DNA from: a virus
Direction: 5' to 3' (one strand)
Virus record (IMG/VR): IMGVR_UViG_3300033142_001588
Location: 21,120-85,119 of that record
DNA length: 64,000 bases
Position numbers and translations under genes: made by a program. The notes under the pieces were generated by a model. It did not search any database. It saw nothing but the letters and a program-made list of their open reading frames with translations, and was not told where the DNA came from. Position 1 is the first letter of the stretch. Every line of letters starts with the position of its first letter. Of the stretch, positions 8,299-61,050 are shown piece after piece.

Positions 8299-8310
8299 AA
8301 TTCTACCTTT

Positions 8311-11300: not shown

Positions 11301-14300
11301 CACGAAAGTCTTCTTGCAACCCTTGGAATCTTCTAACTCTATTAGCTATATTAGCCCCAAACTGATCGGCTTTTCGTTGTGCAGAAATTGATTTTAGTAA
11401 AGCCTTATTAAGATTTGCGTAATTTTTATTTAACTCGTTGGTAATTTTATTAATGGCATCAATATTAGCACGGAATGTTTCGAGGCCTACGGCACTTAAC
11501 TGATTAGTAATCTTATCAATAATTTCAGTAGGATCAGCGCCTTCAAGTAATTCCTGTAAATTTCTCTGCCCCTCTTTTTCGCCTTTGCCCGTCGCTAACT
11601 CACTTATAGCGGTAATAAATGCGTTTTGGGCTTGTTGACCAAGACCCTGAAATTCAGTTTTTTCAAATAATTTTTTTACAACCTGTTCAGCACTTGCGCC
11701 CTCAATACCAGAACCACCAGCTGCTGCTGCAAGAATTTGTGGACCTTTATCAGCCAGGAATTTTGCGTCTTGTATAGTAGATCTTAAATCTTTGATAATT
11801 GCTGCTTCTTGGCCTTGTTGATCCGTACCTATAAATCCACTAATACGGTCCAACTGTTGATTAAGAAGACTCTCGTCTGCAAGCGCTAAATTTTTAGGCA
11901 ATTGAGTACTAATTGTAGCCGCACCACCTTGAGGTCCAGCCTGAATACTTGCTAATGTAGACCTAGCATCTTCACCAGCACTAGCAGCAAGACTAGCGGC
12001 CTCTCCCAAAGCAGCAAGTCTAAAATTCAATAAATTTATTTCCACGCCCGCTTTCCTAGCAGCTTCAGCAGCAGCAATCTCAGCATCTATTAATTTATTC
12101 CTAACATCAATTGTTTTCCGTTGCTCGTTTAATATGGCCAGCCCTTCCGACTTAAGAGCCGCATCTCTTATTGTGGCATTAGTAAAATCGTCGCCAAGTT
12201 CCTGTCTTACTTTTTCAGCGCGAGTAGCGCCAAGCTGTCTTGCTACATTCTCAAGTCCGCCTAAATCTCTAATAAGATCGTCAACATTACGTCTTTCATC
12301 TGGTGTCCCAATAGCTCTATTTAAAAAGTTGAGGCTTTGATTAGCACTTTCTCTAAAACTATCAGAAATATCTTTAGCAAACTGGTCCAAAACCTGAGAC
12401 CTTGCTTCAGCTCTAGCCTCATCAGCACCTAAATTTGGACCTAAAAAATCACGAGTAATCGCTAAGAAAAAGCCTTCTTGATTTCTAATTGCTTTTTCTA
12501 AATTTCTTTCAGTGGTATCTTGACCAACACCAAACGCACCACCTGCGCTAATAAGACTTTCTCCCGTCAAAATTTTATTAAGAAAACCCAAGCCAGTAAA
12601 TGCAGTGCTTATCTTAGTTACATCAGAAGTAAGAGTAGCGAGACTGGTTCCAGTATCAAATTGAGCTTGACTTGCTAAATCAGCAGCTTTAGTAGCTTCA
12701 ATATTTGCTTTGGCTAGGTCTTCTCCAGTTGTTATACCAGTATCGAGCCCTTTTAAAGCATCCGCAACTCCTTGCACAGTTTCTGCAAGCTCAACTCTTG
12801 CTAGATCTGATGTTTTTTGATCGAAGGCGTCTGTTGCACTCGCAAAAGCCCCTGTTAAACCACCTAGAACACCGCCAACAACCGTTCCCACGCCAGGAGC
12901 TATTGCACTTCCAATAGCCGCACCAGTTGTCGCACCACCAAGAGCACCAGAGATACCAGCACCAGTAGCAGCCCGTCCTGCGGTTTCATCCCCAATAGCG
13001 CCCTGAATCAAAGGAGCAGCAAAAGAAGTAGCTATTAATGCGCCTGGACTTCCTAATTTACTTCCTATTGATAATGCTTTTGGTCCAAGTTTAGACGCAG
13101 CGCCAGCGATAGATCTTCCAGCAGTTACTCCAGCACGACCTGCAAGCCCCCTAACACCACGAGTTCTTCCAAAACCAAACTGATTGGGTCTTGGTCGACG
13201 TGCCGCTCTATTGTTTGAACCTCTTATCTGAGCTGTTTCACCAGCTATTTCTGCTTCAATTATATTGCCCGCTTTTTTAGATCCTACCGTCATACCGTCT
13301 ACAATTGAACTACTGAGGTTATCACCTGCTCTGTCTATTGAAGTCGGATCTATTACAACTTCAATGGTTTCGCCAACGTTGGGAGAGGTTAATTGTGAAA
13401 CAGTTGCTCTACCGCCTCCCTGGAATTTTTTAACCATTCCGCCAGAAGCAAATCTCATCAATCCGCCATTTGCCGCTCTTCTAGAAGATCCAGAACCAGA
13501 AGACTTTTTAGTATTATTAAAATTACCGACAACATCCTCAGCAAAAGCTTTACGAATTACAAAACTGCCTTCTGGAATATCTGTTCTAAATGAATCCGAA
13601 TTGCCTCTACCAGGAACCCGACTAACATCAGATAAATCAAAAGAACCTAAAGCACTAGGATCACCAGTCTCATTAAATTTACGCAATGCGTTCTCGCCAG
13701 CTTGACGTGTTGACTTTGGACCAAAAATCAATTCTCCAGGCATGGTTAACGCAGGAACAAGGCCTTCTTCATCAAAGGCAAGATCTACAATTTCACCGCC
13801 GCCTGCCCTAGCAACAAAGTTAGCATTCCTAAGATTACCAGCAACTGCTTTGGATACACCAAAACTCTCTTGAACATCTTTAGAAGAAAGACTTTTTTTA
13901 CCACGTTGGTCTTTTTGCAATGACTGTAAAATAGGTTGAAATTCTTTATCAAGATCATCATCAATCTTGTTCAACTCAGGACGAAGATTGTCTACTGTTT
14001 GATTTCTTACTTTTTTGATTAATGATCTGAGCGAATCTCTAGTGAATGAATTTTTTGCATCTGTTGCTTCATTGGCTAATTTTGAATCAAATTTAGCACC
14101 GAGACCTGGGCCTAAACCTGACGGAAAATCAAAAGTAGTATTAGAAAATTCTTTTTCTGAAAAAGGATTGCCTGCTTTTAAAAGCAATCCTTCAAAAATA
14201 TTACCACTGATCTGGTCAACATTAATTTTCTTTAAAAATCCAGCATCTATATTAGGAGCAGTATTTAGATTAAGTTCTGGTTTAAGTAATTGTGCAGCAC

Positions 14301-16911: not shown

Positions 16912-16924
16912 AATTTTACTTTAT

Positions 16925-17000
16925 TAAAAAAAGTGGTCATATAAGAACAGTGATTAATGAGCAAAACTCACTACGCACTATCCTATATGCCACTTTTCTT
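16925..17000 (-). terminator. Inverted-repeat terminator-like element upstream of tape measure
   Basis: The arms AAAAGTGGTCATATA (16929-16943) and its imperfect complement at 16984-16997 enclose a second small stem AGTGA/TCACT. On the minus strand the structure ends in a T-run, so it could end or attenuate transcription between the 293-aa gene and the tape measure. The AAAAGTGG core also occurs in other intergenic regions of the window, so it may be a regulatory site rather than a plain terminator. Confidence 0.5.
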
Positions 17001-17015
17001 TCCGCTTGGGTTTAA

Positions 17016-17897
17016 CTATTTAGATTCAACAGTTTCTTCGTTTTTTGAATCAGCTTCTTCAGAAGAGCTTTCTTCTTCTTTATCTTCTTCTTCAGAAACA
17101 ATAGGATTATTATCATCGTCTAAAAATGGGCTTCTGTCAAATGAATAATTACCATCATCATCAAGTTTTAAGCCATCTTTATCAACTCTATTACCATCTT
17201 CATCAATATAGTGGCCCTTTTCATTAATCAAACGGCCAGTTTCATCAACGAGTTTCCCTTCTTCGTTAACGAGTCTATTTTCACTATCTGCGAAACCAAA
17301 TTCTCTCAAAAACTTGTTTTCTTCATAAGAATCATCAAAATTTTCAGACAAATTATACAATAAAGAAGCTAATTTTGAAGCTCCTTGAACAGCATAATCT
17401 TCAGCCTGATTGTTTAAATAATCGTCCATATTATTAAAAACAGGTTTCTGATTATCATTATACACCAAACAGGAACTTACCCAATAATTAAACCTAGCAT
17501 TATCGGCTTGACCTTCAGCAGTATGAACATCTAACTCTGTTCTTTGTGCAATCATGTCTCTAAGATCTAATCTCAAACCGCGCAATTTTATAGCAAGCTT
17601 TTTTGCTTCAGATAACTTAATTCCACCTTTTGCAATACTTTTTTCTATAGAGATAATCTCTTCGCTGATTTTCCCTAGCTCCTCTTGCTTCTTATCGTCC
17701 CACATATTTTGATCACGCATAAAGTCATCTAATTTAGCACGAAGTAAAGCGCCTGAAGAAATAGCGTCATTAAAAGCCCTATTATAAATCTTCTGGCCCT
17801 CCCTTTGCTGTACCATATTTGGTTTGCGAACCAAAATTTGCTTCATAGTTCCTTGAACTTCAGCTTCAAAAATAATTTTGTCAACTGTCTTACTCAT
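17016..17897 (-). CDS. Acidic tail-assembly-region protein with DxDG-like repeats (293 aa)
   Basis: I do not recognise a named family. The gene sits directly before the tape measure, where tail assembly chaperones are normally encoded, and overlaps the preceding 125-aa gene by eight bases (ATGAGTAA), so the two are probably co-translated, like a chaperone pair. The first ~200 residues are helical. Residues ~205-275 contain six or seven short repeats of about ten residues with forms such as NEEGKLVDE, DEDGNRVD and DDDGN, which resemble calcium-loop sequences. The last ~25 residues are almost all Glu, Asp and Ser. The acidic tail could be a chaperone feature. Function is inferred from place only. 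Confidence 0.55.
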   Translation of the reverse strand: MSKTVDKIIFEAEVQGTMKQILVRKPNMVQQREGQKIYNRAFNDAISSGALLRAKLDDFMRDQNMWDDKKQEELGKISEEIISIEKSIAKGGIKLSEAKKLAIKLRGLRLDLRDMIAQRTELDVHTAEGQADNARFNYWVSSCLVYNDNQKPVFNNMDDYLNNQAEDYAVQGASKLASLLYNLSENFDDSYEENKFLREFGFADSENRLVNEEGKLVDETGRLINEKGHYIDEDGNRVDKDGLKLDDDGNYSFDRSPFLDDDNNPIVSEEEDKEEESSSEEADSKNEETVESK

Positions 17898-18267
17898 TTT
17901 CGGTTAACTCCTGATTGTCCTGTTTTATTAAAAAATTATATTGGCTTTTATTGTATTTAATGGTATTATTATCTATTTCAGATAAAGCTGCCCTCATCTG
18001 ATTATTACCATTATTTAGTATTTCTGTTCTTGCTAATTGCCACTTTTCTTTGAATTTTCTCTGGGTTTCTGAAAGATCACTGTCTGGCAAACCGTGTCCC
18101 CACAAATCCCCAAATATTTTTTCAAATTTAGACAACGCACCAATCATAGTAGTTCTAAATTTAGTTTCCATGTGTCTTTTTAAGGTATTTTTTGAATGAG
18201 CCTCATACCTTTTTTCATTAGCTTTTTTATGCGCTCCTAAATATTTTTTATCCTCATTATTAGACAT
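17890..18267 (-). CDS. Small tail-assembly-region protein (125 aa)
   Basis: A hydrophilic, lysine-rich and mostly helical protein of unknown family. It is followed without a gap by the 293-aa gene, whose ATG overlaps its stop. The pair lies between tail tube and tape measure genes, the usual place of the two tail chaperone reading frames (lambda G and GT). A U UUU UUA heptamer occurs near its 3' end in the correct phase for slipping, but a minus-one shift would reach a stop after twelve codons and not enter the next gene, so a G/GT-type fusion is not supported. Confidence 0.55.
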   Translation of the reverse strand: MSNNEDKKYLGAHKKANEKRYEAHSKNTLKRHMETKFRTTMIGALSKFEKIFGDLWGHGLPDSDLSETQRKFKEKWQLARTEILNNGNNQMRAALSEIDNNTIKYNKSQYNFLIKQDNQELTENE

Positions 18268-18291
18268 TGTAATTCCTTTTCCTGTTATGTT

Positions 18292-19326
18292 TTAATTTTT
18301 AATTTTTAATTGTTTAGCGGCACTAATTTGCATTTTTCTATCTTCAAAATTTGCGTCAATAGCTTTGCCTTTTGTTTCAAGAACTTTTTCTCTCTGTTTC
18401 TTAATAATTTTTCCTGCTACAGAATTCATATTATCTATTTGCTCGGCCTCTTCTTTAGAATTTGCCATAATATAAATTTCATCTGCCTTAGCAAGCTTTT
18501 TGTTATTTTTTTCAAACTCTTGTTCTTTTTTACGTGATTCATTTTCTCTTCTTATAAAAACCATCCATCCGTCAAATAAATCATCGTCTTGAATAACAGA
18601 ATCATTTGGACAATCAGGATGTTCATAAGCAGAGTCATACATTCTAGAAAATAATATTAAACTTTTTTGTTCCTCAGACAAAACAAAGCTTTTATTTTGA
18701 GGAAAAGGATTACCTTTATTAATGCTCCAATAAGTTTTCCAAGGATCGTTTCTTGCTATATCTCTTATATCTTCAATTGAAATAGAATATTCTATTTTTT
18801 TTGCCATTATTCTTTCCAATAAAGAAAAGTCAACATCGTCTATAGAATCCCAAACCTTTTCTTCATTATGATATAAAGTCTCCATTACAATATATTGCTG
18901 TCTAACCATTTCGGCAAAACCTTCAATCGTCAAGTAATCTAAAGAATGCCTAATATTTATTTGCTCTGTATACTTTTTTTTAACTAAATCCAATGTATTT
19001 CTTGTTTTTTTAAAAGACGCAGGATTCATTAAACTATTAAAAAGATTGCATTTTAAATTTTCAATTTGTTTGCTTATTTCTTCTAAATTTTTATCAATAT
19101 CAAATGAACATAAATCTTGACTAACTAAAATTTTTAGACAATCGGATTGTCTTAAAATATTATCATATCTTAATTTATAAGCTGCTTGTTCATAGATACT
19201 ATAAGATTTTAACCTAATTTCTGGGCTGGGATACAACAAGGAATAAATTTTATCATCTAGTGTTATTTCTGTATTATCAGATATAAGTCTATAGAGAAGC
19301 ATTTCTCTCCTTGTTCTTTTGTCCAT
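18292..19326 (-). CDS. Unknown phage protein in tail region (344 aa)
   Basis: I do not recognise this protein. It is hydrophilic and mainly helical, with a charged coiled-coil-like C-terminal third (residues ~260-344) rich in Lys, Glu and Gln. There is no signal peptide or membrane segment. It belongs to the run of four genes between the tail tube gene and the tape measure, with short gaps on both sides, so a role in tail assembly is likely. Codon use is strongly AT-biased like its neighbours. Confidence 0.5.
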   Translation of the reverse strand: MDKRTRREMLLYRLISDNTEITLDDKIYSLLYPSPEIRLKSYSIYEQAAYKLRYDNILRQSDCLKILVSQDLCSFDIDKNLEEISKQIENLKCNLFNSLMNPASFKKTRNTLDLVKKKYTEQINIRHSLDYLTIEGFAEMVRQQYIVMETLYHNEEKVWDSIDDVDFSLLERIMAKKIEYSISIEDIRDIARNDPWKTYWSINKGNPFPQNKSFVLSEEQKSLILFSRMYDSAYEHPDCPNDSVIQDDDLFDGWMVFIRRENESRKKEQEFEKNNKKLAKADEIYIMANSKEEAEQIDNMNSVAGKIIKKQREKVLETKGKAIDANFEDRKMQISAAKQLKIKN

Positions 19327-49780: not shown

Positions 49781-51901
49781 CTATTCTACACCGTTTTTAC
49801 GAATAACGTGACCTATTACGCCATTTTTATCGTTATTCATACCTTTTGTAAACCACTCTGGACCCTGATAAAGATCATTAGACTTTTCAGAATCTTTTCT
49901 GGCAGCAAGTTGGTGTGAAAAACCGCCGATTACACTGTACTCCACAGAAGCTGGAGCGCGCTGAATAGATCTAGCTATATAATTAGCCATTACCAAAGAA
50001 GAATAACGGTCTTTTCTCATTCTCTTCTTTTTACCTTCCGTTGTAGTAGTTTCGGGAGTATCCCATCTGTCACGGGCTCCCACACCAGTTCCAGTCCTAG
50101 TCATAACTATAGTGCAAAGCTCATCTTTTAACTCTTCTATCTCCATAACACAATCTTCTAAAGTGTCATACAACTTGTCAACCCCAAGGTTTTCAGCTGT
50201 TGTACGGTCCTGATGAGCGGCCATTTCTAAACTAACGGGATCAAACCTGGGAAATAGCAAGACTTTATCTTCAAAATCTTTACGAGTACCATGGTTGGCC
50301 ATAGAAGTAAAATCAAAATTAGCGAATTGGCACATGTGAATAATATGAAGACCAGACTCAACATCCGTAGGAAGCTCTTTATCTGGATTAAGGATTTTAT
50401 TAGTAGGCCACAAGAAATGTTCCCCATGCTCTAGCTTACTCGGGTCGTGAAAAGCCTCAAGAATAGCCCTACCACCACCTTGAGCATCCAACGCTATATT
50501 TTCGGTAGGAAATACCTTCATTAAATTTCTAATTTTTCTAGCGCAAAAACCATAGTAATCATGATCAGATGCCATGCCAGCCTTTTTCCTACGTTGAAAA
50601 TCGGTGACATTTGTTGACCAAGAATACACAATCCTAGTATGATCCTGCCAGAGTTCCAAGACAACAATAGAGAAATTATCTTGTTCGGCAGCAGGGTCAA
50701 TACCGTATACGTACTGTCTTCCAGGCGTTCCAGCCACCACAGGATCAAACCAAACGCTACCACTAGGAAGAACTACTGGATTACTATCTTTGGTGACGCA
50801 GGACTCGATCAAACTTCTTTTAAAAAACCCGTCAGAATCTGAAGGAAATACCGCTCCATATTCTTTTTGGTAAATAGCTTTATGACTTCCTGCTTTAGCT
50901 GCTGCAACAACTTTATCATCCATAAATCCTTTTGGAATTAACTCGTAAGGAATTCTAATTACAGCATAATCTTTATAATCGAAAGCCTCCTCAACACCGT
51001 CTGGGAAAAATTCTCCTAGAGTTTTAACCTCGCCAGAAGGAAGTTTGATAAGCTTTTTAGGATCTCCCTTCGACCTAATATAGGTCATATACTTCTTCCA
51101 GTAATCCGCATAGGGCATAAAATCATAATCAGCAGTACCAGCAATAATACACTGGTTGCCGCCCTTAGTACGGAAAACCTGTTCCTGATTCTCTGTCCAT
51201 TGGCCCTGAGCCTGTAAAGCCTCTCTTCTTGCGTAACCCTTAACACCGTCCAAAGGCTTTTGTTCAACCGCAGCAAAACCGCGAACAACAGTTTCATAAA
51301 TATCTGGAGGAATAGATGCAAATTCGTCCGCAATAATACATGTAGCACGTAAGCCTCTGATCTTGGAACCGTCGCCTAGCGGAACAAATACAGCAGTTGA
51401 GTCATTAATGACCACAGAACATCTATCGACCGCTTGACGAGGACCACTGGCTTGGGTACAAACAGACCGTAAGATAGGCGCATTTCTCCAAATGGTATCC
51501 ATGTATTCATAAATAACCCTGGACTGACGGAAGGCCGAACCAACGCCCACAACCTTTGTACCTGGGATCAAAGCGCATCTAAGAGTAGCATATAAAGCTA
51601 ATAAGAAAGACTTACCGAAACCACGGCTTGCTATATACATAGGAAAAGGCCTGATCCAAAGTTCTTGTAAGATAGCGGCCTGTTCAGGAAGTACATCAAT
51701 GTCTAACAAAACTTTTGCTGCAAAACCAAGATACTCTGGATTACGCATAATCCTAAGTTCTAATAAACCTGGATTTTCAACATCGTCTCGATCACGACCG
51801 ATTAACTGATTTTCTATTTCTTTTCCATGTAAATTACCAAGCTTAAGCCAAGCATCATCTACAATAGAATTAGGTCTTATTAATTTTTGGGTTTGTGCCA
51901 T
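49781..51901 (-). CDS. terL: Terminase large subunit (706 aa)
   Basis: The DNA packaging motor. The ATPase domain has a Walker A motif ASRGFGKS at residues 91-98 and a Walker B CIIADE at 188-193 with catalytic Glu193. A coupling-like segment and C-motif follow around 245-255. The nuclease domain begins near residue 390-400 with 'YVYGIDPAAEQDNFSIVVLEL', whose Asp is the first metal ligand of the RNase H-like fold; a second Asp is in 'ENIALDAQGGG'. It is long for a TerL because of extra ~60-residue segments before Walker A and at the C-terminus. The start overlaps the end of the ERCC4-like nuclease gene by 22 bases. Confidence 0.95.
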   Translation of the reverse strand: MAQTQKLIRPNSIVDDAWLKLGNLHGKEIENQLIGRDRDDVENPGLLELRIMRNPEYLGFAAKVLLDIDVLPEQAAILQELWIRPFPMYIASRGFGKSFLLALYATLRCALIPGTKVVGVGSAFRQSRVIYEYMDTIWRNAPILRSVCTQASGPRQAVDRCSVVINDSTAVFVPLGDGSKIRGLRATCIIADEFASIPPDIYETVVRGFAAVEQKPLDGVKGYARREALQAQGQWTENQEQVFRTKGGNQCIIAGTADYDFMPYADYWKKYMTYIRSKGDPKKLIKLPSGEVKTLGEFFPDGVEEAFDYKDYAVIRIPYELIPKGFMDDKVVAAAKAGSHKAIYQKEYGAVFPSDSDGFFKRSLIESCVTKDSNPVVLPSGSVWFDPVVAGTPGRQYVYGIDPAAEQDNFSIVVLELWQDHTRIVYSWSTNVTDFQRRKKAGMASDHDYYGFCARKIRNLMKVFPTENIALDAQGGGRAILEAFHDPSKLEHGEHFLWPTNKILNPDKELPTDVESGLHIIHMCQFANFDFTSMANHGTRKDFEDKVLLFPRFDPVSLEMAAHQDRTTAENLGVDKLYDTLEDCVMEIEELKDELCTIVMTRTGTGVGARDRWDTPETTTTEGKKKRMRKDRYSSLVMANYIARSIQRAPASVEYSVIGGFSHQLAARKDSEKSNDLYQGPEWFTKGMNNDKNGVIGHVIRKNGVE

Positions 51902-52509: not shown

Positions 52510-52956
52510 TCACCTCTTTCTAGCTCTCCTCTTTGCTTTCGCATATCTTGAGGCGAAGCTGTTGGACTTTTTTCTCTTGTTTTTGCCAACATTTCCTTTC
52601 TTACTCTTATCTCCTTTGGCTCTATCTCGTTTTGCGTACTCTGGGTCTTTTGTTGTTCTGCCGACAATTGATGCGAATAGTCTCTCATGTTGTTCCTCCT
52701 TACCCCATATTGAATCATGATGAGTTTTACAAAGAGTAATACCGTTTGATACTATATAACGTAAATTAGGATGTTCTGACCAAGTTCTAATATGGTGAAC
52801 GTGTAAACGTCGAGTTGCACCGCACTTAGGCCATTGACAACATCTACAATCCCTTTTAAGAACTTCTTTACGAAACTCTGTATATGCTGGATCTTTGTAA
52901 TCCCTATCATTAGTACTGAAACGCCTTATTTGTTGTTTTTTCGGACGATATGTCAT
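52510..52956 (-). CDS. HNH endonuclease (148 aa)
   Basis: The HNH core is visible: V53-H54-H55, N71 and H79-H80 (ITLCKTHH), with structural Cys at 37, 40, 45 and 76 that may bind zinc. The C-terminal 50 residues are very basic (KRKKSN, AKRRARKR) and probably contact DNA. HNH proteins next to terminase assist cos cleavage in HK97-type phages, so this one is likely part of the packaging complex rather than a homing enzyme. Its first 47 bases lie inside the end of the dehydratase gene upstream, an unusually long overlap. Confidence 0.85.
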   Translation of the reverse strand: MTYRPKKQQIRRFSTNDRDYKDPAYTEFRKEVLKRDCRCCQWPKCGATRRLHVHHIRTWSEHPNLRYIVSNGITLCKTHHDSIWGKEEQHERLFASIVGRTTKDPEYAKRDRAKGDKSKKGNVGKNKRKKSNSFASRYAKAKRRARKR

Positions 52957-54037
52957 AGTTTACCATTCTGGAAACAAGTTGTTCAAAACTTACTTCAGGC
53001 TCCCAACCAAGCTTTTCCTTGGCTTTCTTAGGACACCCGCATAAATAATCAACTTCTGCTGGACGCATAAATTCTGGATCTTGAACGACCAAATTTGACC
53101 AATCATGTATTCCAGCAGATGAGAATGCAATATCAAGAAATTCTTTTACACTATATGTTTTACCAGTAGCGATTACATAATCGTCAGGACTTTCTTGTTG
53201 AAGCATTAAGTACATAGCTTTAACATAATCCTCTGCATGTCCCCAATCTCTAAAAGAATCAAAATTACCAAGCCTAAGTTTTGGAAAAGCCTCAATGCAA
53301 TCAGACTTATATAGAAAATTATTATAGTCTTTTGAACAAGAATTATTACAATCTGTTGTAGATAAAATATCTTGATTAAGCCAAGCTATATATCTCCCAA
53401 TCCATTTTGTAATTTTACGAGTTACAAAGTTCTCGCCTCTTCTTTCAGACTCGTGGTTAAACAATATTCCGCAGGATGCATGTAAATCATAAGCTCTCCT
53501 GTATAGTCCTACTGATTCATGGGCGGCAATCTTAGCCACAGCGTAAGGACTTTGCGGAGAAAACGGTGTTTCTTCATTTTGAAATTTATTATTTCCCTCT
53601 CCTGAGCCACTATAGTTTCTACCAAACATTTCACTGGTACTGGCTTGGTAAAATTTAGTGGATGGGTTTATATTTCTAATCGCTTCCAAAATATTAATTA
53701 CTCCAATCGCATCAATATCAAAAGTAGCACAAGGTTGTGAAAATGATGTACCAACATGGCTTTGCGCAGCTAAGTTGTAAAACTCTTCGGGGCGAAATTC
53801 TGTGATTAGACTATTAACACTTGACGGGTCAGTAATATCTCCTTCAACAATCCTGAAATAAGACTCGTCTTTTAAATGTTTAATACGTTCCGTATTATCG
53901 ACGGAAGAACGTCGGCAAACGCCAACTACAAAATATCCTTTATTTAGTAAATACTCACACAAGTAAGACCCGTCTTGCCCTGTTGCTCCAGTAACTACGG
54001 CAACCTTGTTTCTTCTTTTGAACTTAATTGGTATCAT
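52910..54037 (-). CDS. gmd: GDP-mannose 4,6-dehydratase (375 aa)
   Basis: An extended short-chain dehydrogenase with all Gmd landmarks: NAD(P) motif TGATGQDGSYL at 16-26, NLAAQSHV at 88-95, catalytic STSEMFG (133-139) and Y165-AVAK169, and the family signature 'LFNHES.RRGENFVTRKIT' (192-210), with Glu where most members have Pro. It converts GDP-mannose to GDP-4-keto-6-deoxymannose, precursor of fucose, perosamine and rhamnose. It lies in the packaging operon between an acidic protein (four-base overlap) and the HNH gene (47-base overlap). Sugar-modifying partners are encoded on the opposite strand at 57-61 kb. Confidence 0.93.
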   Translation of the reverse strand: MIPIKFKRRNKVAVVTGATGQDGSYLCEYLLNKGYFVVGVCRRSSVDNTERIKHLKDESYFRIVEGDITDPSSVNSLITEFRPEEFYNLAAQSHVGTSFSQPCATFDIDAIGVINILEAIRNINPSTKFYQASTSEMFGRNYSGSGEGNNKFQNEETPFSPQSPYAVAKIAAHESVGLYRRAYDLHASCGILFNHESERRGENFVTRKITKWIGRYIAWLNQDILSTTDCNNSCSKDYNNFLYKSDCIEAFPKLRLGNFDSFRDWGHAEDYVKAMYLMLQQESPDDYVIATGKTYSVKEFLDIAFSSAGIHDWSNLVVQDPEFMRPAEVDYLCGCPKKAKEKLGWEPEVSFEQLVSRMVNYDISSEKTTNKAFQY

Positions 54038-54507
54038 TTATTTTTCCTTTGCGGAATATCTGAAGTACTTGTTCCTTGACCAATATTGCGAATAGGTTTA
54101 TCGTTCCATATCTTGTAAATACCAACTCTTTCATTAGCATCTTCAGCGCTTCTTGCTGGCTTTACAGAACCCCTGCTTTTTCGAACTCCAGGTCCGCCTA
54201 TGCGAATTCCCTGCCTGTCTTTAGCAATCTTAACACTGGAAGCCTCAGTTGCATCGCGATTACTCTTATACTCTACAGCGCCCTCGTCATCACTTTTGGT
54301 TTGCTGTTCCGCTTTTTCAATAAGACTACTTGCAAATTCTTCTTGTCGCTCTTCAACAATTTCTTCAACAGTATCCTCAGAAACAACGGGAAGATCGTCT
54401 TCCACTTGTTCTGGTATGTCAATATCTTCTGATATACATGCTTCCACTTCAATTTCTTCAGTCACATCTTCTTCAGATGTTTCCAAGATTTTATCTTCTT
54501 CACTCAT
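54034..54507 (-). CDS. Acidic/basic two-part unknown protein (157 aa)
   Basis: The first ~75 residues are extremely acidic (EEDVTEEIEVEAC) and the last ~55 are basic and glycine-rich (GGPGVRKSRGSVKPAR). No family is recognised. The charge split suggests a flexible linker or DNA-mimic protein. It lies between the candidate small terminase and gmd, with a four-base overlap to gmd. Expression with the packaging genes is expected. Confidence 0.5.
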   Translation of the reverse strand: MSEEDKILETSEEDVTEEIEVEACISEDIDIPEQVEDDLPVVSEDTVEEIVEERQEEFASSLIEKAEQQTKSDDEGAVEYKSNRDATEASSVKIAKDRQGIRIGGPGVRKSRGSVKPARSAEDANERVGIYKIWNDKPIRNIGQGTSTSDIPQRKNK

Positions 54508-54509
54508 AA

Positions 54510-55319
54510 TTACTCATCCTTTACTGTATCTGGAGTTAAAAACGGTTGGTCAACCTGACCGTCCTCATATTTATGATACTCTGAAAGCCTATTTATTGCA
54601 TTTTCTTTAGCCATTTTAAGTATTTCAATATCTTCACCTACCTTTTGCCTTGTCTCCTCATCCTCTAAAGAACGAAGGAATCCAGCCCAACTCGATTTGC
54701 TATCTTCAATTTTCTTAACACGATCAGCACGAGCTGCTTTAAGGTCTTTCTGTATCTTTTCAATTCTATCTAGAATCTTAGAATGCTCGGTTGTGTAAGA
54801 TCCTTGTGCATTGCGAACCATAGATAATTCTGTTTCTAAATGTGCAATTGTAGTTGCGTCACGAACGTCTTCAGGTAACGAATATTCTTGATCTAAAAGT
54901 CTAGTCAAACGCTCGATTTGCTGTTGGGCATCTTTCCTGTCTCTCATTACCTTATTGCCCATAATCTCTAGGGTAATCCATTGTTTTACCTGCAATTCTT
55001 CGGAATATAAAATATCTTCTCGAAACTGTTTCATCATGCGAATCCAGGTGATTGCAAAATATTCTAATTCAGATTCTGAGAATTGCCTACTAACCTCTTC
55101 CCAATAAGGTTTTTCTTCAAGCTTTGCCCGCAAAAGAGTATCATCATAAATCTCTTCGGACATACCTGTATAAGTTAGGTTTTCGGCATTGGCAAATTTT
55201 TGAACGGTAGCATCAGATCTATTGATTTGAATAGCTATATCATGTATAGATAATCTTTCAATATTAGCCCGAATAAACTCCATTTCTTCGTTGCTTAATT
55301 TTCCTCGCTTAAGAGCCAT
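54510..55319 (-). CDS. Candidate terminase small subunit (269 aa)
   Basis: Residues ~8-48 form a helix-turn-helix ('SIHDIAIQINRSDATVQKFA'), and ~120-235 are long charged coiled-coil helices, the layout of small terminases (DNA-binding head, helical oligomerization core). It is encoded in the packaging operon upstream of HNH and TerL. The HTH resembles that of the 83-aa protein at 56243. It overlaps the sigma-like gene by 11 bases. Another DNA-binding role cannot be ruled out. Confidence 0.45.
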   Translation of the reverse strand: MALKRGKLSNEEMEFIRANIERLSIHDIAIQINRSDATVQKFANAENLTYTGMSEEIYDDTLLRAKLEEKPYWEEVSRQFSESELEYFAITWIRMMKQFREDILYSEELQVKQWITLEIMGNKVMRDRKDAQQQIERLTRLLDQEYSLPEDVRDATTIAHLETELSMVRNAQGSYTTEHSKILDRIEKIQKDLKAARADRVKKIEDSKSSWAGFLRSLEDEETRQKVGEDIEILKMAKENAINRLSEYHKYEDGQVDQPFLTPDTVKDE

Positions 55320-55941
55320 AATCTTCCTCTGGTATTAATTCTTTTATAAAATTAATTAATTTAACACGTTCAGACTTTGGTATTTTTACATCGTTTTTCA
55401 TTTTTACCCAAGATTTTCTTAAACTTACAGGTATTTTTGAATCAATTAAATCAATCATGTTTATAAAGTCTAACTCGTCAGCAACAGTGTCCTGTTTCCT
55501 CATACTGCTTTCATTTTCATCTTTTACATTACCCATTTCAATGGGGCACATAATGTTTTTCTTGGCTGTATTTCTTTTTTGCCAAGATGCATATAAATCA
55601 CAATCAAACTTGTCTTCATATTCTAAACACTGACTAAAAGAATTTTGACAATCAGCATCGTATGCTTTTAATGGACAGTCAAAACAAGGCTTATCGGGTC
55701 TAGCGTATTTATTTCTTTTTATGTTAAATAAACGGTTACTAACATGTGTCCACAAAAAAGTTTCTAATTTTCCTCTAGAAGAATCGTATCTATCAAGACC
55801 TTCTATAGCTAGCATCCTTGCTTCCTGTTTCATGTCATCTAAGCCATGATAACCAAACCTGTATTTATAAGCTAAACCGTTCGCAACCCTGTCTATTGAA
55901 GACAAAACCTCTTCTTCTGTCATACCTTTAGGTATATTCAT
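55309..55941 (-). CDS. Small sigma factor-like protein with cysteine clusters (210 aa)
   Basis: Residues ~22-76 match sigma70 region 2: 'YKYRFGYHGLDDMKQEARMLAIEGLDRYD' then 'LETFLWTHVSNRLFNIKRNKY', which in sigma factors binds RNA polymerase and the -10 box. Cys residues at 86, 89, 98, 105, 114 and 132 follow and may bind metal. A short C-terminal helical part (~158-205) replaces region 4, so -35 recognition is doubtful. It fits phage late sigma factors such as T4 gp55 in size. Reading -10 without -35 would match the GGTGTATAAT elements of this window. It is coupled to the candidate TerS by an 11-base overlap. Confidence 0.7.
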   Translation of the reverse strand: MNIPKGMTEEEVLSSIDRVANGLAYKYRFGYHGLDDMKQEARMLAIEGLDRYDSSRGKLETFLWTHVSNRLFNIKRNKYARPDKPCFDCPLKAYDADCQNSFSQCLEYEDKFDCDLYASWQKRNTAKKNIMCPIEMGNVKDENESSMRKQDTVADELDFINMIDLIDSKIPVSLRKSWVKMKNDVKIPKSERVKLINFIKELIPEEDYGS

Positions 55942-55946
55942 ATGAT

Positions 55947-56105
55947 TTAGTTTTGCTCTGGTTGGTCTTCTTTTTTACTGTTGAGAAATGCCCTTGCTTC
56001 TTCTTCTGAAGGATCGGGAATATTAAGCTCATCTAACACTTCCTCGGACAATTTGGCCGTAGCCTTAGCTTTAATATCCGTTGAGATAAAAGTATCTTTT
56101 TTCAT
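55947..56105 (-). CDS. Small acidic/helical protein, first gene of leftward operon (52 aa)
   Basis: This short frame starts at ATG 56105 with AAAGGGTAATTAA before it and stops at 55947, five bases before the sigma-like gene. It translates as a hydrophilic helical protein (MKKDTFISTD...EEEARAFLNS...). It is the first frame after the divergent promoter region and has the codon use of its neighbours. No family is recognised. Confidence 0.6.
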   Translation of the reverse strand: MKKDTFISTDIKAKATAKLSEEVLDELNIPDPSEEEARAFLNSKKEDQPEQN

Positions 56106-56242
56106 TTAATTACCCTTTCAATATATGCAAAAGTGGTCATTATTATGTATAATGATTATACACTATAAAGTGGACAAATGTTATGCGTATACACCAATTA
56201 TATTTAAAATGTTGTATAAAATTTAAAAATAGGAGAAATTTA
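56106..56242. promoter_or_regulatory. Divergent promoter region between the two arms
   Basis: The gap contains an AAAAGTGGTCAT motif (56129-56140) and a palindrome GTATAATGATTATAC around 56147-56161, which gives a TGTATAAT -10 box on the plus strand and a GTGTATAAT box on the minus strand. Thus the leftward virion operon and the rightward sugar operon may start from one bidirectional element. A TAAAGTGGACAA variant follows at 56166-56177. Confidence 0.6.
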
Positions 56243-56494
56243 ATGAACCAAGTCTGGAAAGAACATGAAAAAGCATTTATTATTGAAAATGCGCAAACAA
56301 TGAAAGATAAAGACATCGCAACAAATTTAACAAAAATTAGCGGTCGCGTAGTTACTATTCAAGCTGTCAGAAAGCAAAGGCAAAAACTTGGAATTACAAA
56401 AGCTCGTGGACGAGGAATATGTGCTGTTGTAAAACCCGAAGAAAATGAAAGTAACTCAGCCGAAATAGCTAAAGCGATAAACAAAGGAAATTAA
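56243..56494 (+). CDS. Small helix-turn-helix protein (83 aa)
   Basis: The start is ATG 56243 with AGGAGAAA before it; an in-frame ATG at 56183 has no ribosome site. Residues ~4-50 form an HTH-like segment 'EHEKAFIIEN...KDKDIATNL..ISGRVVTIQAVRKQRQKL', similar to the N-terminal HTH of the candidate small terminase. The C-terminus is Glu/Asn-rich. As the first rightward gene next to the divergent promoter, it could be a regulator. The precise role is unknown. Confidence 0.6.
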   Translation: MNQVWKEHEKAFIIENAQTMKDKDIATNLTKISGRVVTIQAVRKQRQKLGITKARGRGICAVVKPEENESNSAEIAKAINKGN

Positions 56495-56496
56495 AA

Positions 56497-57546
56497 ATGA
56501 AAATAGGTTTTGGTCTAACTAAAAATTTATCATGGGCTTCTGTATTTAAGTCAAGTATAAAAAATGCTGGGCATGAACCTGTTTATATAACAATGGAAGA
56601 TTTGACAAACAAATCGAAAAACCCAATCTACAATAAAGAAATAGATATGTTTTTTATGACATGTTATTCTAGAGGGTTTTCAACAAAAGGCTTAAATAGG
56701 CAAGAACTGTTAAATCTTTACAACAGTGTGAACAAACACACAGCCCTTAGAATGTTAACACATGATAGCAATGTTCACAATATTCCATTTGTTTATGCTG
56801 ACGCCGCAGTTTTTGATGAATTAAAAGAAGACTCCGACTGTCAGACAATTACTATCAATGGACCAAAAAATTCTGGTATAGAATATGCAGATCTTTTAAA
56901 AGAAGATTCTTCCAGAATGAAATTCATAGAAAACCATTTAAATATAAATCACAAACAATCACATGATAAAGAAATTAATGATGTCTTGTTTGTTATGCAA
57001 AATATTTTTGGATACAAGTCAAATACTGAATCAATAGATGATCAAATATATAAGTGTTACAAAGCAATTAAAGAAATAGAAGAAAAAAGCGATAAAATTA
57101 ATATACACTTATCTTTACATCCTAAAATGACAGACATCCTTTTTGATTTATTTCACTCAAACCAAGTAAAGCCTGGGTTCAATTATGATAAAAAACGATT
57201 ATTTGACTTGATGAAAAAACTAAAAGAATACCTAACACCTACATCTGTAAAAAAAATCTTTTTAAAAGACTATGACTGTTGCGTTGGATGGCACACAAAC
57301 CATTTGTGCAATTCTCTTGTGAGACAACAAAAATATGTGTGTTTAGATAAAGAAAACTTTTGCTATGATTTAGGAGCAAAGAGTATAGACAATATTATTA
57401 ATAACGATGGATTTGAAAATATTATCAACAAAGAAAAAAGAGAAGAATGGTTTAGAAAAATGTCTTGGTGCAATTGGACTTTATCAGAAATAACAGAAGG
57501 AAAAATGTGGAGACCAATAGAAGAATGGCATCAAAACAACCAATAA
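56497..57546 (+). CDS. Unknown protein of sugar cassette, possibly glycosyltransferase-like (349 aa)
   Basis: I do not recognise a firm family. The opening 'MKIGFGLTKNLSWASVFKSSIKNAGHEPVYI' resembles the first strand-helix-strand of a GT-B or nucleotide-binding fold, with a second strand unit at ~40-60. Several Cys occur near the C-terminus. It is followed with a 22-base overlap by the GT2 gene, so it belongs to the sugar operon and could be a second transferase. AAAGGA lies before the ATG. Confidence 0.45.
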   Translation: MKIGFGLTKNLSWASVFKSSIKNAGHEPVYITMEDLTNKSKNPIYNKEIDMFFMTCYSRGFSTKGLNRQELLNLYNSVNKHTALRMLTHDSNVHNIPFVYADAAVFDELKEDSDCQTITINGPKNSGIEYADLLKEDSSRMKFIENHLNINHKQSHDKEINDVLFVMQNIFGYKSNTESIDDQIYKCYKAIKEIEEKSDKINIHLSLHPKMTDILFDLFHSNQVKPGFNYDKKRLFDLMKKLKEYLTPTSVKKIFLKDYDCCVGWHTNHLCNSLVRQQKYVCLDKENFCYDLGAKSIDNIINNDGFENIINKEKREEWFRKMSWCNWTLSEITEGKMWRPIEEWHQNNQ

Positions 57547-58460
57547 CAATAATTACAACAAATTTTTTATGCGCAGATGTATTACTAAAGAACTTAGAAA
57601 TAATTCGTAATACTATAATACCAGATAAATTTGTAATAATTGAAAATTCTCCTAACCCACAATTCGTTAACTGGGGCGAAAACGTGCAAGTTATAAAAGG
57701 AATAAAAAAGGAACAATTAAATGAAACACAAAATTCTGAAGGGGAAAGGGTAAATAAAAATAGCTTCCACCACGGGTGGGCTTTAAACAAAGGAATAGAA
57801 TACATTGATCCTTGTAGTAAATATGTTTTATTTGTAGATTCGGATTTTTTTATATTACAAGATATTGGTAATATTATTAAATATATGGAAAATAATAACC
57901 TGTCTTTCTTCGGAGCCCCTTACCCAAACAAGCACCCAAACTCAAAAAACAAAGGAGAAATGTTTTTTCCAACCGCATTTTGCATGTTTGTAAACCTGGA
58001 AAAAGTAGACGTAAAAACGTTCGATTTTTTACCACCACTAACACAAGAAACATATCAAGAATGGTTAAAATTAAAAACAGATAAAGAATACAGCAAAGAG
58101 CAGAACGAAACGCATTTTCACTCCAAAAAAACCGCATTGCTTGATACTGGCCACAATGTATATCACAAATATGCTAATGATGAAAAACATAAAACAGAAA
58201 TTGCAGAAATAGTTTTAGAAAAAAGTCCAGCTACAGGAATGTTGCCAGTCGCTTATATCCAAAGTCAACAACTAAACAAATTTTATAAAAAAATAATGTA
58301 TAACAATGTTTTTGATTTATATCAATGGCAGAATAAATTATTTGGACTACATGTTCATTTAAAACTACATTTATGTAACGTTCAAAGCAGACAAAAAAAA
58401 CAAAAAATTACATGCGAATCAATAGAAGGACTGTATGAATTCCGAGATACCGTTATTTAA
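57525..58460 (+). CDS. GT2-type glycosyltransferase (311 aa)
   Basis: I start at ATG 57525 (MASKQPITIITTN). The GT-A fold is visible: an N-terminal 'PITIITTNFLCADVLLKNLEIIRNTIIPDKFVIIENS' unit (6-42), a family-typical 'GWALNKGIEYID' helix (84-95), and a DxD-type metal/nucleotide motif D105-S-D107 in 'YVLFVDSDFFIL'. It should transfer a sugar from a nucleotide donor; acceptor and donor cannot be read. It overlaps the upstream gene by 22 and the aminotransferase gene by 26 bases, so this is one operon. The C-terminal ~60 residues are basic. Confidence 0.75.
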   Translation: MASKQPITIITTNFLCADVLLKNLEIIRNTIIPDKFVIIENSPNPQFVNWGENVQVIKGIKKEQLNETQNSEGERVNKNSFHHGWALNKGIEYIDPCSKYVLFVDSDFFILQDIGNIIKYMENNNLSFFGAPYPNKHPNSKNKGEMFFPTAFCMFVNLEKVDVKTFDFLPPLTQETYQEWLKLKTDKEYSKEQNETHFHSKKTALLDTGHNVYHKYANDEKHKTEIAEIVLEKSPATGMLPVAYIQSQQLNKFYKKIMYNNVFDLYQWQNKLFGLHVHLKLHLCNVQSRQKKQKITCESIEGLYEFRDTVI

Positions 58461-59556
58461 AGTATTTATGTCACCTCGTGCAAAACATGAAGTAGGAAAA
58501 ATATTAGACTCAGGATGGATAGCACAAGGTAAAATAACAGACGAATACGAAACCAAATTATCGAAATGGCTTGATCACCCTCGTGTAGCAACAGTTAATT
58601 CTTGCACATCCGCAATTCATTTAGCTTTGTATTATCTCAAACAAAAATACAACTGGAAAAACCCAGAGGTAATAACAACCCCGTTAACATGCGCTGCTAC
58701 AAATATGCCTATTGTCACAAACGGGTACACGTTGAAATGGGCTGATGTAAACAAAGATTATAATATTAGCATACAATCAATAAAAAATGCAATAACCAAT
58801 AACACCAAAGTAATTATACTTGTTCATTGGGGAGGGAATTATATTAATTACGATGAGCTTCGCTCAGAGATTCCTGATGATATTCATATTATTGAAGATT
58901 GCGCTCATGCTTGGGGTGCCGAATGGAAAGGTGAGAAAAACCCGAAAGAAAGCAAAAACCATTGGAAGTGCTATAGCACTCAGGCCATTAAAACTTTAAC
59001 TACTGGTGATGGAGGAGCATTATGTGTTCCTAACGACGAAGACTTTAAAGAAATAAGAAAATTAAGATGGTTTGGATTAGATAGAGATAATGACCAAGAT
59101 TTTCGTAGTGGGCAAGATATACAAACACCAGGATGGAAATTTCAAACCAATGACATCGCTTCCGCTATAGGATTAGAGAATTTAAAATTTTTATCCTATT
59201 TGGTTAAAAAAGCCAGAGAATGCGCAGATTATTACAACAAGAATATATGGAATGATTTTATAATAAAACCCGTTGTAAATAAAGACTCTAATCCATCTTG
59301 GTGGCTATACACGTTATCTGTGAAGCATAGAAACGAATTTATCAACCACCTTAAAAAGCATAACATATCTGCTCATTGGGTGCATACAAGAAATGACCAA
59401 CTAAGCTGTTTTAGTCAATATAAAGAAAAGTTGCCATTAATGGACTCTATAGAGAATAATATGGTATGCATTCCTTGTGGGTGGTGGCTAGACAAACATG
59501 ATATGGAAAAAATAGTAGAGGTTGTTAATGGATACAGTCCAATGGAGACACGCTGA
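58435..59556 (+). CDS. DegT/DnrJ/EryC1-type sugar aminotransferase (373 aa)
   Basis: A PLP enzyme of fold type I. 'NSCTSAIHLALYYL' (55-68) binds the cofactor phosphate, 'HIIEDCAHAWGA' (151-162) holds the PLP-binding Asp155, and 'YSTQAIKTLTTGDGGALCV' (180-198) holds the Schiff-base lysine, Lys186. A 'F(R/S)...GW.....D..AAIGLENL'-like strand-helix follows at ~229-252. Such enzymes aminate 4-keto-6-deoxy sugar nucleotides. Substrates could come from Gmd (perosamine type) or from the RmlB-like enzyme encoded downstream. It has AGAAGGA before the start and overlaps neighbours on both sides. Confidence 0.9.
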   Translation: MNSEIPLFKVFMSPRAKHEVGKILDSGWIAQGKITDEYETKLSKWLDHPRVATVNSCTSAIHLALYYLKQKYNWKNPEVITTPLTCAATNMPIVTNGYTLKWADVNKDYNISIQSIKNAITNNTKVIILVHWGGNYINYDELRSEIPDDIHIIEDCAHAWGAEWKGEKNPKESKNHWKCYSTQAIKTLTTGDGGALCVPNDEDFKEIRKLRWFGLDRDNDQDFRSGQDIQTPGWKFQTNDIASAIGLENLKFLSYLVKKARECADYYNKNIWNDFIIKPVVNKDSNPSWWLYTLSVKHRNEFINHLKKHNISAHWVHTRNDQLSCFSQYKEKLPLMDSIENNMVCIPCGWWLDKHDMEKIVEVVNGYSPMETR

Positions 59557-60073
59557 TCAAAATGATGTAGATAGCATCATAGAGATGAGGCAAGACGATT
59601 CTACTAGAGACCGATTACATGATTGTCGTAAGTTTAACCATGAAAATTGCTTAAAATGGATTTCTGAAATAACAAAAAGCTTAGATACTGAAAGATGGGT
59701 TTTTGAAAAATCTATTGAGCTTTACCATAGCGGTGCCTGTGGTGAATTTATAGGATTAGCAAGAATTGATAAAATTGACCATATTAATCAAACTTGCTGT
59801 GTAGGACTAGACATCCACCCAAAACAAAGAAAAAAGGGTTTTGGCAGATATGTATGGAAAGTAATATTAGAAGAGATGTTCACTAGAAGGAATATGCATC
59901 TGGTGTGGCTTGAGGTTTTAGATACAAACGAGGTAGCTAAATCTCTATATGAAAAACTCGGTTTTGTTTTAGAAGGAAAGTTAAGAGGAAGAATTCTTAG
60001 AAATTCCAAAAGAGTAGATTCATTAATAATGTCAATGACGAGAGAGGAATGGCAGAAATGCGAAAAGCGCTAA
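59528..60073 (+). CDS. GNAT-family N-acetyltransferase, PseH/RimL-like (181 aa)
   Basis: Start chosen at ATG 59528, which has GAGG six bases before it; a TTG two codons earlier is also in frame. The fold follows Acetyltransf_3: 'VQWRHADQNDVDSIIEMRQDD' at the N-terminus, 'CVGLDIHPKQRKKGFGRYVWK' containing the acetyl-CoA loop (Q/R-KKGFG, ~93-100), and 'VLDTNEVAKSLYEKLGFVLEG' as the closing motif. Enzymes of this kind acylate 4-amino sugars, and it overlaps the aminotransferase gene, so the likely substrate is the new amino group. It is followed by the RmlB-like gene with a short overlap. Confidence 0.85.
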   Translation: MDTVQWRHADQNDVDSIIEMRQDDSTRDRLHDCRKFNHENCLKWISEITKSLDTERWVFEKSIELYHSGACGEFIGLARIDKIDHINQTCCVGLDIHPKQRKKGFGRYVWKVILEEMFTRRNMHLVWLEVLDTNEVAKSLYEKLGFVLEGKLRGRILRNSKRVDSLIMSMTREEWQKCEKR

Positions 60074-61050
60074 TTACTGGTGGAGCTGGATTCATTGGGC
60101 ACCATTTAATTGAACATATTTTAAAAAATACGGACTTGGAAATTATTTGTCTTGACAGACTAGATGTCTCTGGAAATTTAAACAGACTTGATGAGGTAAT
60201 TAGTCAGGATAATTTATATAAAAAAAGATTTAAATTTATATACCATGATCTGAGAGCTGAAATCAATAGCCAGTTAGCAAAACAGATTGGAAACCCCGAC
60301 TTGATTTTCCATTTGGCGGCTTCCTCTCATGTTGATCGAAGTATTCAAGACCCAATGGGTTTTGTGATGGACAATGTTGTAGGAACCGTCAACCTTTTAA
60401 ACTACGCAAGGACTATTGACAATCTAGAATATCTGCAAAACTTTTCTACTGACGAAGTATTCGGAGATGCACCAGAAGGAACAGCTTACCAAGAGTGGGA
60501 TCGGCATTGGCCCAAGAATCCATACTCCGCAAGTAAGAGCGGTGCAGAAGCGATGGGAACATCGTTCGCGTGTACTTATGGATTGCCCGTTATTACTACT
60601 AATTGCATGAATGTAATTGGAGAACGGCAACACCCAGAGAAATTTTTGCCAATGTGTATAAAAAGAGTTTTAAATGGACAACGCATCTATATTCACACTT
60701 ACCCAGGTCGCCAGAAAGCTGGAACCCGATTTTATATTCATGCTCGTAATGTAGCTGATGCTTCTCTGTTTCTTACAGAAAACGGTTACAAAGGAGAGAA
60801 ATACAATTTAGTTGGGCAGAAGGAAGTGTCAAATCTAGAGTTGGCGGAATTTGTGGCTAAGGTTCTCGACAAGCCCCTGGACTATGAGATGGTGGATTTC
60901 CATTCTAATCGGCCTGGACATGATCTTAGATATGCTCTTGAGGATACTAAGTTGTGTGCCATGGGATATGAGTATCCTACGGAATTCTGGTATTCACTGG
61001 AAAAGACAATTAAGTGGACGATTGAAAATCAGAGGTGGTTAGTTGAATGA
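60058..61050 (+). CDS. NAD-dependent sugar-nucleotide 4,6-dehydratase, RmlB-like (330 aa)
   Basis: An extended SDR with Rossmann motif GGAGFIG (8-14), 'FHLAASSHVDRSI' (~86-98), the RmlB-type 'STDEVFG' (catalytic T-D-E) and 'NPYSASKSGAEAM' with the YxxxK pair, then 'NCMNVIGERQHPEKFLPMCI' as in dTDP-glucose 4,6-dehydratase. It would make a 4-keto-6-deoxy sugar nucleotide for the aminotransferase. AGAGAGGA lies nine bases before ATG 60058; an ATG at 60049 is almost on top of that site and is less likely. GC content is higher than in the genes just upstream. The nucleotide carrier (dTDP, GDP, CDP) is not certain. Confidence 0.85.
   Translation: MRKALITGGAGFIGHHLIEHILKNTDLEIICLDRLDVSGNLNRLDEVISQDNLYKKRFKFIYHDLRAEINSQLAKQIGNPDLIFHLAASSHVDRSIQDPMGFVMDNVVGTVNLLNYARTIDNLEYLQNFSTDEVFGDAPEGTAYQEWDRHWPKNPYSASKSGAEAMGTSFACTYGLPVITTNCMNVIGERQHPEKFLPMCIKRVLNGQRIYIHTYPGRQKAGTRFYIHARNVADASLFLTENGYKGEKYNLVGQKEVSNLELAEFVAKVLDKPLDYEMVDFHSNRPGHDLRYALEDTKLCAMGYEYPTEFWYSLEKTIKWTIENQRWLVE

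Follow-up and report, generated by a model that had tools for sequence, protein, structure and literature searches.

Organization of the locus

The window, a 64-kb (64,000-nucleotide) stretch of the IMG/VR virus record IMGVR_UViG_3300033142_001588, carries candidate nucleotide-sugar genes on both strands (Table 1). On the + strand, the GT2-like, DegT, GNAT and RmlB-like genes form a closed, overlapping unit (57525-61050). On the − strand, Gmd lies in an operon that runs sigma factor, TerS-like protein, Gmd, HNH endonuclease, nuclease and TerL. The earlier note had named all five sugar genes. Their open reading frames, family matches and intact catalytic motifs bear it out, and the key catalytic residues, on whose preservation its proposal hung, are retained in the RmlB-like, Gmd, DegT and GNAT proteins.

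Ahead of the GT2-like gene, a 103-aa ORF, which had no match in Pfam, NCBIfam or PHROG, ends 2 bp before U349, an ORF that the earlier note had missed. U349 gave zero matches in Pfam, NCBIfam, PHROGs, PDB, annotated phages and viral contigs, and its predicted structure (pLDDT 35.5) is unusable as a model. Judged only from its position and an impression of motifs, it is a possible glycosyltransferase.

Table 1. Features of the two operons (positions in the window)
Feature	Position	Strand	Basis or remark
TerL, large terminase	49781..51901	−	Used to find sister phages
HNH endonuclease, after Gmd	52510..52956	−	Overlaps Gmd 3′ end by 47 nt; homologues in G001 and L180
Gmd, probably of a separate sugar branch	52910..54037	−	Pfam GDP_Man_Dehyd 4e-114; motifs; slot in L180
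TerS-like protein, upstream of Gmd	54510..55319	−	Position; L180 homologue in the same place, 32%
Sigma-70 region 2 protein, near late-operon head	55309..55941	−	Pfam 6.7e-6; L180 homologue, 30%
Small ORF (103 aa), operon head	56183..56494	+	HTH DNA-binding likeness, by eye only
U349, orphan 349-aa ORF, precedes GT2 in the same operon	56497..57546	+	ORF list
GT2-like glycosyltransferase, GT-A fold (predicted)	57525..58460	+	Pfam Glycos_transf_2 8e-5; fold model; relatives
DegT/DnrJ/EryC1 sugar aminotransferase, CalS13-like family	58435..59556	+	Pfam PF01041 1e-65
GNAT N-acyltransferase, PseH-like	59528..60073	+	Start ATG 59528; Acetyltransf_1; TIGR03585
RmlB-like NDP-hexose 4,6-dehydratase	60049..61050	+	TIGR01181; motifs (TDE...YxxxK)

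Enzyme classes of the + strand cassette

Enzyme classes, catalytic motifs and synteny can be read from the sequences themselves. The catalytic residues of the RmlB-like protein are intact, with TGGAGFIG at 10, TDE at 134-136 and Y159SASK163. The pattern [ST]DE...YxxxK is the signature of dTDP/UDP-Glc dehydratases, whereas Gmd-type enzymes have [ST]SE (PMC8987622, Table 1). Against TIGR01181, the NCBIfam RmlB equivalog, the protein scores 254.3 bits over its full length and misses the cut-off of 365, so we call it RmlB-like and not RmlB. The [ST]DE signature is also common to retaining UDP-GlcNAc and UDP-Glc 4,6-dehydratases, and the enzyme might instead take UDP-glucose or UDP-GlcNAc toward a UDP-4-acylamino-4,6-dideoxy sugar. 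In NCBIfam the GNAT and DegT proteins match PseH and PseC best, both below cut-off; as the substrates of PseH and PseC are UDP sugars, this would fit such a route. We nevertheless regard it as unlikely, since the best PDB matches of the RmlB-like protein are dTDP-glucose dehydratases, its RPGHD.RYA stretch is kept, and DegT genes of the same family occur with RmlA.

The GNAT protein matches Acetyltransf_1 (2.8e-12) and has an intact acetyl-CoA loop, QRKKGFG; its score against the PseH model TIGR03585 is 66.7 bits, under the cut-off of 93.1, so it is named PseH-like only. The GT2-like protein falls marginally short of Pfam PF00535 (23.1 bits, cut-off 23.3; 8e-5). Foldseek searches with its AlphaFold model (pTM 0.74, pLDDT 66.6) returned mostly GT-A-type enzymes as top matches, with probability 1.00 and a TM of only ~0.35, and the model suggests a GT-A fold. 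Its relatives occupy the same position in the Pirellulales contig L086 (31%) and lie beside or near DegT in L121, L125, L128 and L137. It is likely the transferase for the sugar that the DegT, GNAT and RmlB-like enzymes produce.

The aminotransferase and its family

The DegT protein matches Pfam PF01041 with 222 bits, and K186 (the PLP lysine) and D155 are invariant in an alignment with two phage homologues. The PLP lysine marks DegT aminotransferases, 3-dehydratases having His in its place; we thus rejected a 3-dehydratase (ColD-like) role. Its best PDB relatives, with ~360 residues aligned and E values of 1e-62 to 1e-65, are CalS13 (4zas) and AtmS13 (4zwv, 4xau). Activity on TDP-4-keto-6-deoxyglucose would be expected of a CalS13-like enzyme. 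The VHW.G, IEDCAHAWGA-like and IP.GWW stretches are common to these enzymes and the phage protein. The former, however, belong to actinomycete secondary metabolism, whereas the phage DegT occupies a separate, long branch.

In a FastTree phylogeny, which has local support values only and no outgroup DegT types, the phage DegT, CalS13 and AtmS13 belong to a single family, and we place the phage protein in a CalS13-like subfamily. It is sister to the DegT of L086 (support 97), beside planctomycete and huge-phage homologues, and the bacterial Rml-linked DegTs fall in the other half of the tree. Because its branch is long (1.17), drift in substrate is possible. Relatives of this family are encoded in 183 of 251 pattern-matching stretches of viral contigs; single-protein scans of the viral contigs with DegT, U349 and GT2 gave zero matches, and only an alignment query found the relatives.

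Synteny and the choice between nucleotide-sugar routes

The order GT2-DegT-GNAT-RmlB recurs in L086 (31, 44, 34 and 62% identity), and RmlB, DegT and GNAT are consecutive in the viral contig L218 (54, 39 and 30%). Both cassette stretches are Gmd-free, over the 12.5 kb examined in the case of L086. Bacterial DegTs of the family share operons with RmlA and RmlB genes that pass their NCBIfam equivalog cut-offs (L121, L137, L127 and L113), L121 having the order RmlB-D-A-C-GNAT-DegT-GT2. Of 101 non-redundant DegT loci, 10 have an RmlB-type dehydratase and 1 has Gmd within 1 kb, and GNAT is adjacent to DegT in 23.

These data bear on whether Gmd, rather than the RmlB-like enzyme, feeds the aminotransferase, so that the GNAT enzyme would make GDP-N-acetylperosamine and the RmlB-like enzyme would serve elsewhere. 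Every enzyme of the Gmd-PerA-PerB route has a counterpart in the phage genome, and Gmd is intact by motif. Moreover, Gmd lies 1.7 kb from a DegT-GNAT pair in the huge phage LR756511 (L004), although it overlaps a different DegT there, and in L155, where it follows an Fcl-like gene, 80 bp separate it from a DegT of the family. We consider this route improbable all the same. By similarity, the phage DegT falls outside the perosamine-synthetase type (CalS13 1.5e-65 versus 8e-17 for perosamine synthetase 3bn1), and the phage Gmd is unlinked to it, on the other strand and in a slot of its own. A PerA identity for DegT was therefore set aside, as was Gmd as its partner, on synteny and similarity, and the GDP-N-acetylperosamine route that the earlier note had put forward is not sustained. 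Its other route, through the RmlB-like, DegT and GNAT enzymes, gains from the affinity of DegT to CalS13 and AtmS13 and from a cassette that stays syntenic without Gmd.

Gmd and the late operon

Gmd appears to be genuine and, strictly, Gmd-like. Its catalytic residues are intact (T134-S-E136, Y165AVAK169), and it scores far above the Pfam GDP_Man_Dehyd cut-off. Against TIGR01472 it reaches 382.8 bits, under the cut-off of 415, the match coming in two stretches with an insert at ~220-249 between them; this insert probably accounts for the shortfall. The operon slot is conserved in the distant phage L180, whose Gmd is 59% identical, and the 20.7-kb L180 contig has no DegT match. A late slot conserved in a contig without DegT argues that Gmd probably feeds another sugar. 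The contig of the sister phage G001 stops at the HNH gene, beside which Gmd would be expected, and its lack of Gmd was not counted.

The proposal of one cassette split over two operons thus holds in part: the aminodeoxysugar cassette stands, while Gmd as its second half does not, given the gene order in L086 and L218 and the L180 slot. As had been claimed, Gmd does belong to the packaging/late operon, on the strand opposite to the cassette, judged by gene positions and neighbors. It would accordingly be expressed late, and strand and neighbors are also what suggest a timing different from that of the + strand cassette; promoter-like matches were not above chance.

A proposed pathway

The + strand cassette probably encodes a complete pathway of its own for a dTDP-4-acetamido-4,6-dideoxyhexose and its transfer, with Gmd separate. 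The RmlB-like enzyme would make NDP-4-keto-6-deoxyglucose, with host dTDP-glucose as the most likely substrate. Next, the CalS13-like DegT would aminate C4, and the PseH-like GNAT would acylate the amine to give dTDP-4-acetamido-4,6-dideoxyhexose (Qui4NAc-like). The GT2/GT-A enzyme would transfer the sugar to an acceptor, probably a glycan that a second glycosyltransferase cluster helps to build. Gmd, a lineage-conserved late-operon gene, would supply GDP-4-keto-6-deoxymannose for another sugar. Here we infer dTDP as the nucleotide, the C4 stereochemistry and acetyl as the acyl group; the synteny with L086 and L218 and a DegT family found in operons with RmlA and RmlB favor this product over GDP-N-acetylperosamine. 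A vague observation of sugar genes in this way becomes a single testable pathway whose likely product can be named.

Such pathways (RmlA, RmlB, aminotransferase, acetyltransferase) occur in O-antigens as dTDP-Qui4NAc/Fuc4NAc-type routes. The enzyme logic is the same, and in bacteria the family DegT and GNAT stand beside RmlA and RmlB; the phage differs in a RmlB-like enzyme under the equivalog cut-off and in a contig (G000) in which RmlA was not seen. The record covers only part of the genome and may lack partner genes; its right arm looks truncated, as DnaB is preceded by about 33 kb in the sister phage G001 and by far less here. A MobA/GlmU-like NTP transferase is encoded outside the window.

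Possible destinations of the sugar

The second glycosyltransferase cluster lies outside the window and is shared with the sister phage G001 (TerL 74%), which carries a different sugar cassette of Fcl-like, CapD-like and GT genes. A virion protein or the host surface would be a more likely acceptor than DNA. Decoration of phage DNA as a hypermodified base, which we consider very unlikely, would suit the T4 gp1-type dNMP kinase (Pfam DNMK) and the several glycosyltransferases near replication genes, and phage DNA glycosylation is known from work cited in PMC12619734. However, no thymidylate-synthase-family gene (the base hydroxymethylase family) is present in the incomplete G000, the one in G001 is thymidylate synthase by TIGR03284, and a Tet/JBP search, run without a positive control, gave zero matches. 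Absences from G000 weigh little because that contig is incomplete; DNA modification was rejected as the leading reading on a hydroxymethylase-type gene not seen in it.

The glycan may instead be placed on the host envelope rather than the virion, for superinfection exclusion or receptor masking, which is compatible with the dTDP pathway and which we hold to be a real possibility, at somewhat under even chances. This is the usual reading for phage LPS-type genes (PMC9602691, PMC12911398), and sister phages do carry different sugar cassettes. Against it, PF02397 (initiating polyprenyl sugar transferase) and PF01943 (Wzx-type flippase) are absent from G000 and G001, with positive controls, and the phage would thus need its host for export. 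A sugar carried on the virion would bear on phage escape from recognition. More tentatively, and with considerable doubt, the lineage may combine a conserved glycosyltransferase core with exchangeable sugar cassettes, relatives coating virions or hosts with different rare sugars; if true, such cassettes would be a phage counterpart of serotype switching.

Related phage systems

Phage-encoded nucleotide-sugar pathways are well known, and the cassette is a fairly ordinary example. Flavobacterium phage immuto (L005) likewise has a GT2 gene directly followed by a family DegT, in a glycan cluster with several glycosyltransferases, a pilin-glycosylation-type gene and an epimerase; its DegT is 35-37% identical, the cluster is larger, and no RmlB-like gene is close. 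More widely, viral contigs often encode CalS13-like aminotransferases, and these are recurrently paired with GNAT. Synechococcus phage S-SCSM1 encodes Gmd, Fcl, a dTDP-glucose 4,6-dehydratase and glycosyltransferases (PMC9602691). It shares a phage-borne Gmd, the same RmlB-like subfamily (54% identity) and several glycosyltransferases with our phage; the accessible text does not mention a DegT-GNAT pair, whereas the RmlB-like gene here lies within an aminosugar operon. This RmlB-like subfamily is common in phages and, often annotated merely as nucleotide-sugar epimerase, can occur in aminosugar operons.

Gene content and catalytic integrity

ORF calls and family searches recovered every gene named in the earlier note, with the coordinates and families it had claimed. 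From the orphan 349-aa ORF onward, adjacent genes of the densely packed plus-strand operon overlap by ∼20–30 nt. Gmd belongs to the packaging operon: sigma-like and TerS-like genes plus a 157-aa ORF precede it, and the genes for an HNH nuclease and the large terminase follow, with 47 nt shared between the 3′ end of Gmd and the HNH gene. The orphan has no relatives in Pfam, NCBIfam, PHROGs, PDB, annotated phages, or viral contigs; by eye, its C-terminal portion recalls GT-B proteins.

Sugar genes and neighbors in the window (positions 21120-85119 of the 85,119-bp IMG/VR virus record)
Gene	Coordinates	Strand	Operon
103-aa ORF	56183-56494	+	cassette
Orphan 349-aa ORF	56497-57546	+	cassette
GT2	57525-58460	+	cassette
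DegT	58435-59556	+	cassette
GNAT	59528-60073 (ATG start at 59528)	+	cassette
RmlB-like	60049-61050	+	cassette
Gmd	52910-54037	-	packaging

Loss of key catalytic residues, which the earlier note had said would count against its proposal, was not seen. TDE (residue 134) and YSASK (159) are present in the RmlB-like enzyme, TSE (134) and YAVAK (165) in Gmd, and DegT retains PLP lysine K186 and aspartate D155 in alignment with homologues. Among tabulated 4,6-dehydratase signatures (PMC8987622), the RmlB-like motifs are of the dTDP/UDP-Glc type and those of Gmd of the GDP-Man type. Judged by motif, the enzymes appear complete. An insert in Gmd (approximately residues 220–249) is missing from six other Gmds compared and mostly missing from the closest, that of distant phage L180 (59% identical).

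The probable dehydratase supplying DegT

Five lines of evidence favor the RmlB-like enzyme, rather than Gmd, as the probable dehydratase for DegT. A Pirellulales contig (L086) has the window's order, GT2-DegT-GNAT-RmlB, among ordinary chromosomal genes, which by eye include a MraZ-like ORF and ORFs for membrane proteins, and has no Gmd within the 12.5 kb examined. RmlB, DegT, and GNAT follow one another uninterrupted in a viral contig (L218). In the PDB, DegT is closest to CalS13 and AtmS13 (E 1e-62 to 1e-65) and far less similar to perosamine synthetase (8e-17); the CalS13 substrate is TDP-4-keto-6-deoxyglucose. In the tree, DegT groups with L086 (97) and huge phage LR756511 (94) inside a family also containing CalS13. 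DegTs of this family stand beside RmlA and RmlB scoring over curated cut-offs in two Rickettsiaceae contigs, an alphaproteobacterium, and a Bacillota contig, and bacterial contig L121 reads RmlB-RmlD-RmlA-RmlC-GNAT-DegT-GT2. When DegT loci are clustered at 80% identity, 10 of the 101 clusters have an RmlB-type enzyme ≤1 kb from DegT and one has Gmd that close, and GNAT adjoins DegT in 23; these counts are supportive only. Thus, of the two routes offered earlier, the dTDP route (RmlB-like, DegT, GNAT) is the better, and the L086/L218 synteny and CalS13 similarity speak against GDP-N-acetylperosamine.

The proposal that Gmd makes this one pathway split between two operons is probably wrong, given the L086 cassette order without Gmd and the conserved Gmd slot in L180. 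There, the order sigma, TerS-like, Gmd, HNH, nuclease, TerL matches this phage (terminase 49% identical), an RmlB-like gene (58%) lies immediately upstream, and no DegT match occurs across the 20.7-kb contig. RmlB-like, Gmd, and Fcl-like genes overlap in L245, and an Fcl-like gene (by eye) accompanies Gmd in L014 and L155. This slot without DegT, together with the Fcl-like company, makes Gmd look like a stable, separate gene serving another GDP-deoxysugar. No reductase partner was seen in this incomplete contig, whose PF01370 (Pfam) genes are Gmd and RmlB-like alone.

Target of the sugar

Neither an initiating polyprenyl transferase nor a flippase was found in this phage or its sister G001, although positive controls worked, and this incomplete genome yielded no thymidylate-synthase-family gene. 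A virion or host-surface glycan is a more likely target than DNA; between virion and host surface, the data favor neither. Comparable phage sets are interpreted as host-surface modification in PMC9602691 and PMC12911398, and mycobacteriophages are known to glycosylate their virions (work cited in PMC12619734). The cassette is a further case of an already known type.

A second glycosyltransferase cluster

Before the window, record positions 10836-18772 (L002:10836-12000 and L003:1-7772) hold GT4-type and GT-B-type glycosyltransferases and a MobA/GlmU-like nucleotidyltransferase. The cluster is collinear in G001 (26–59% identical; terminase 74%). G001 has no DegT match; its right arm carries a GT-like gene, an Fcl-like reductase whose score against GDP-fucose synthase (243 bits) falls short of the cut-off (500), and more GT-like genes (by eye), and a CapD-like SDR lies elsewhere. 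The closest viral RmlB-like gene (62%, L179) sits within a homologue of the cluster. Together with G001's own sugar genes, this placement suggests that the RmlB-like enzyme and the glycosyltransferase core may well act together, sugar cassettes being swapped. The RmlB-like subfamily is abundant among viral contigs, with 569 stretches or more (search loci L179-L258), and a DegT of the cassette's family lies near its genes in just 3 of 80 loci.

Also in the right arm of G001 (L171:6182-7291 and 7272-11824), a radical-SAM-like gene (by eye) adjoins the sugar/GT genes. A long G001 protein (L169:9771-13031), with repeats resembling LamG/concanavalin-type modules (by eye), comes right after the structural genes. 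In this phage, DNA polymerase III alpha forms two ORFs (L002:4708-6624, 8084-9787), a PHP/NTPase part and a finger part, separated by a 279-aa exonuclease-like ORF; the G001 polymerase is split likewise.
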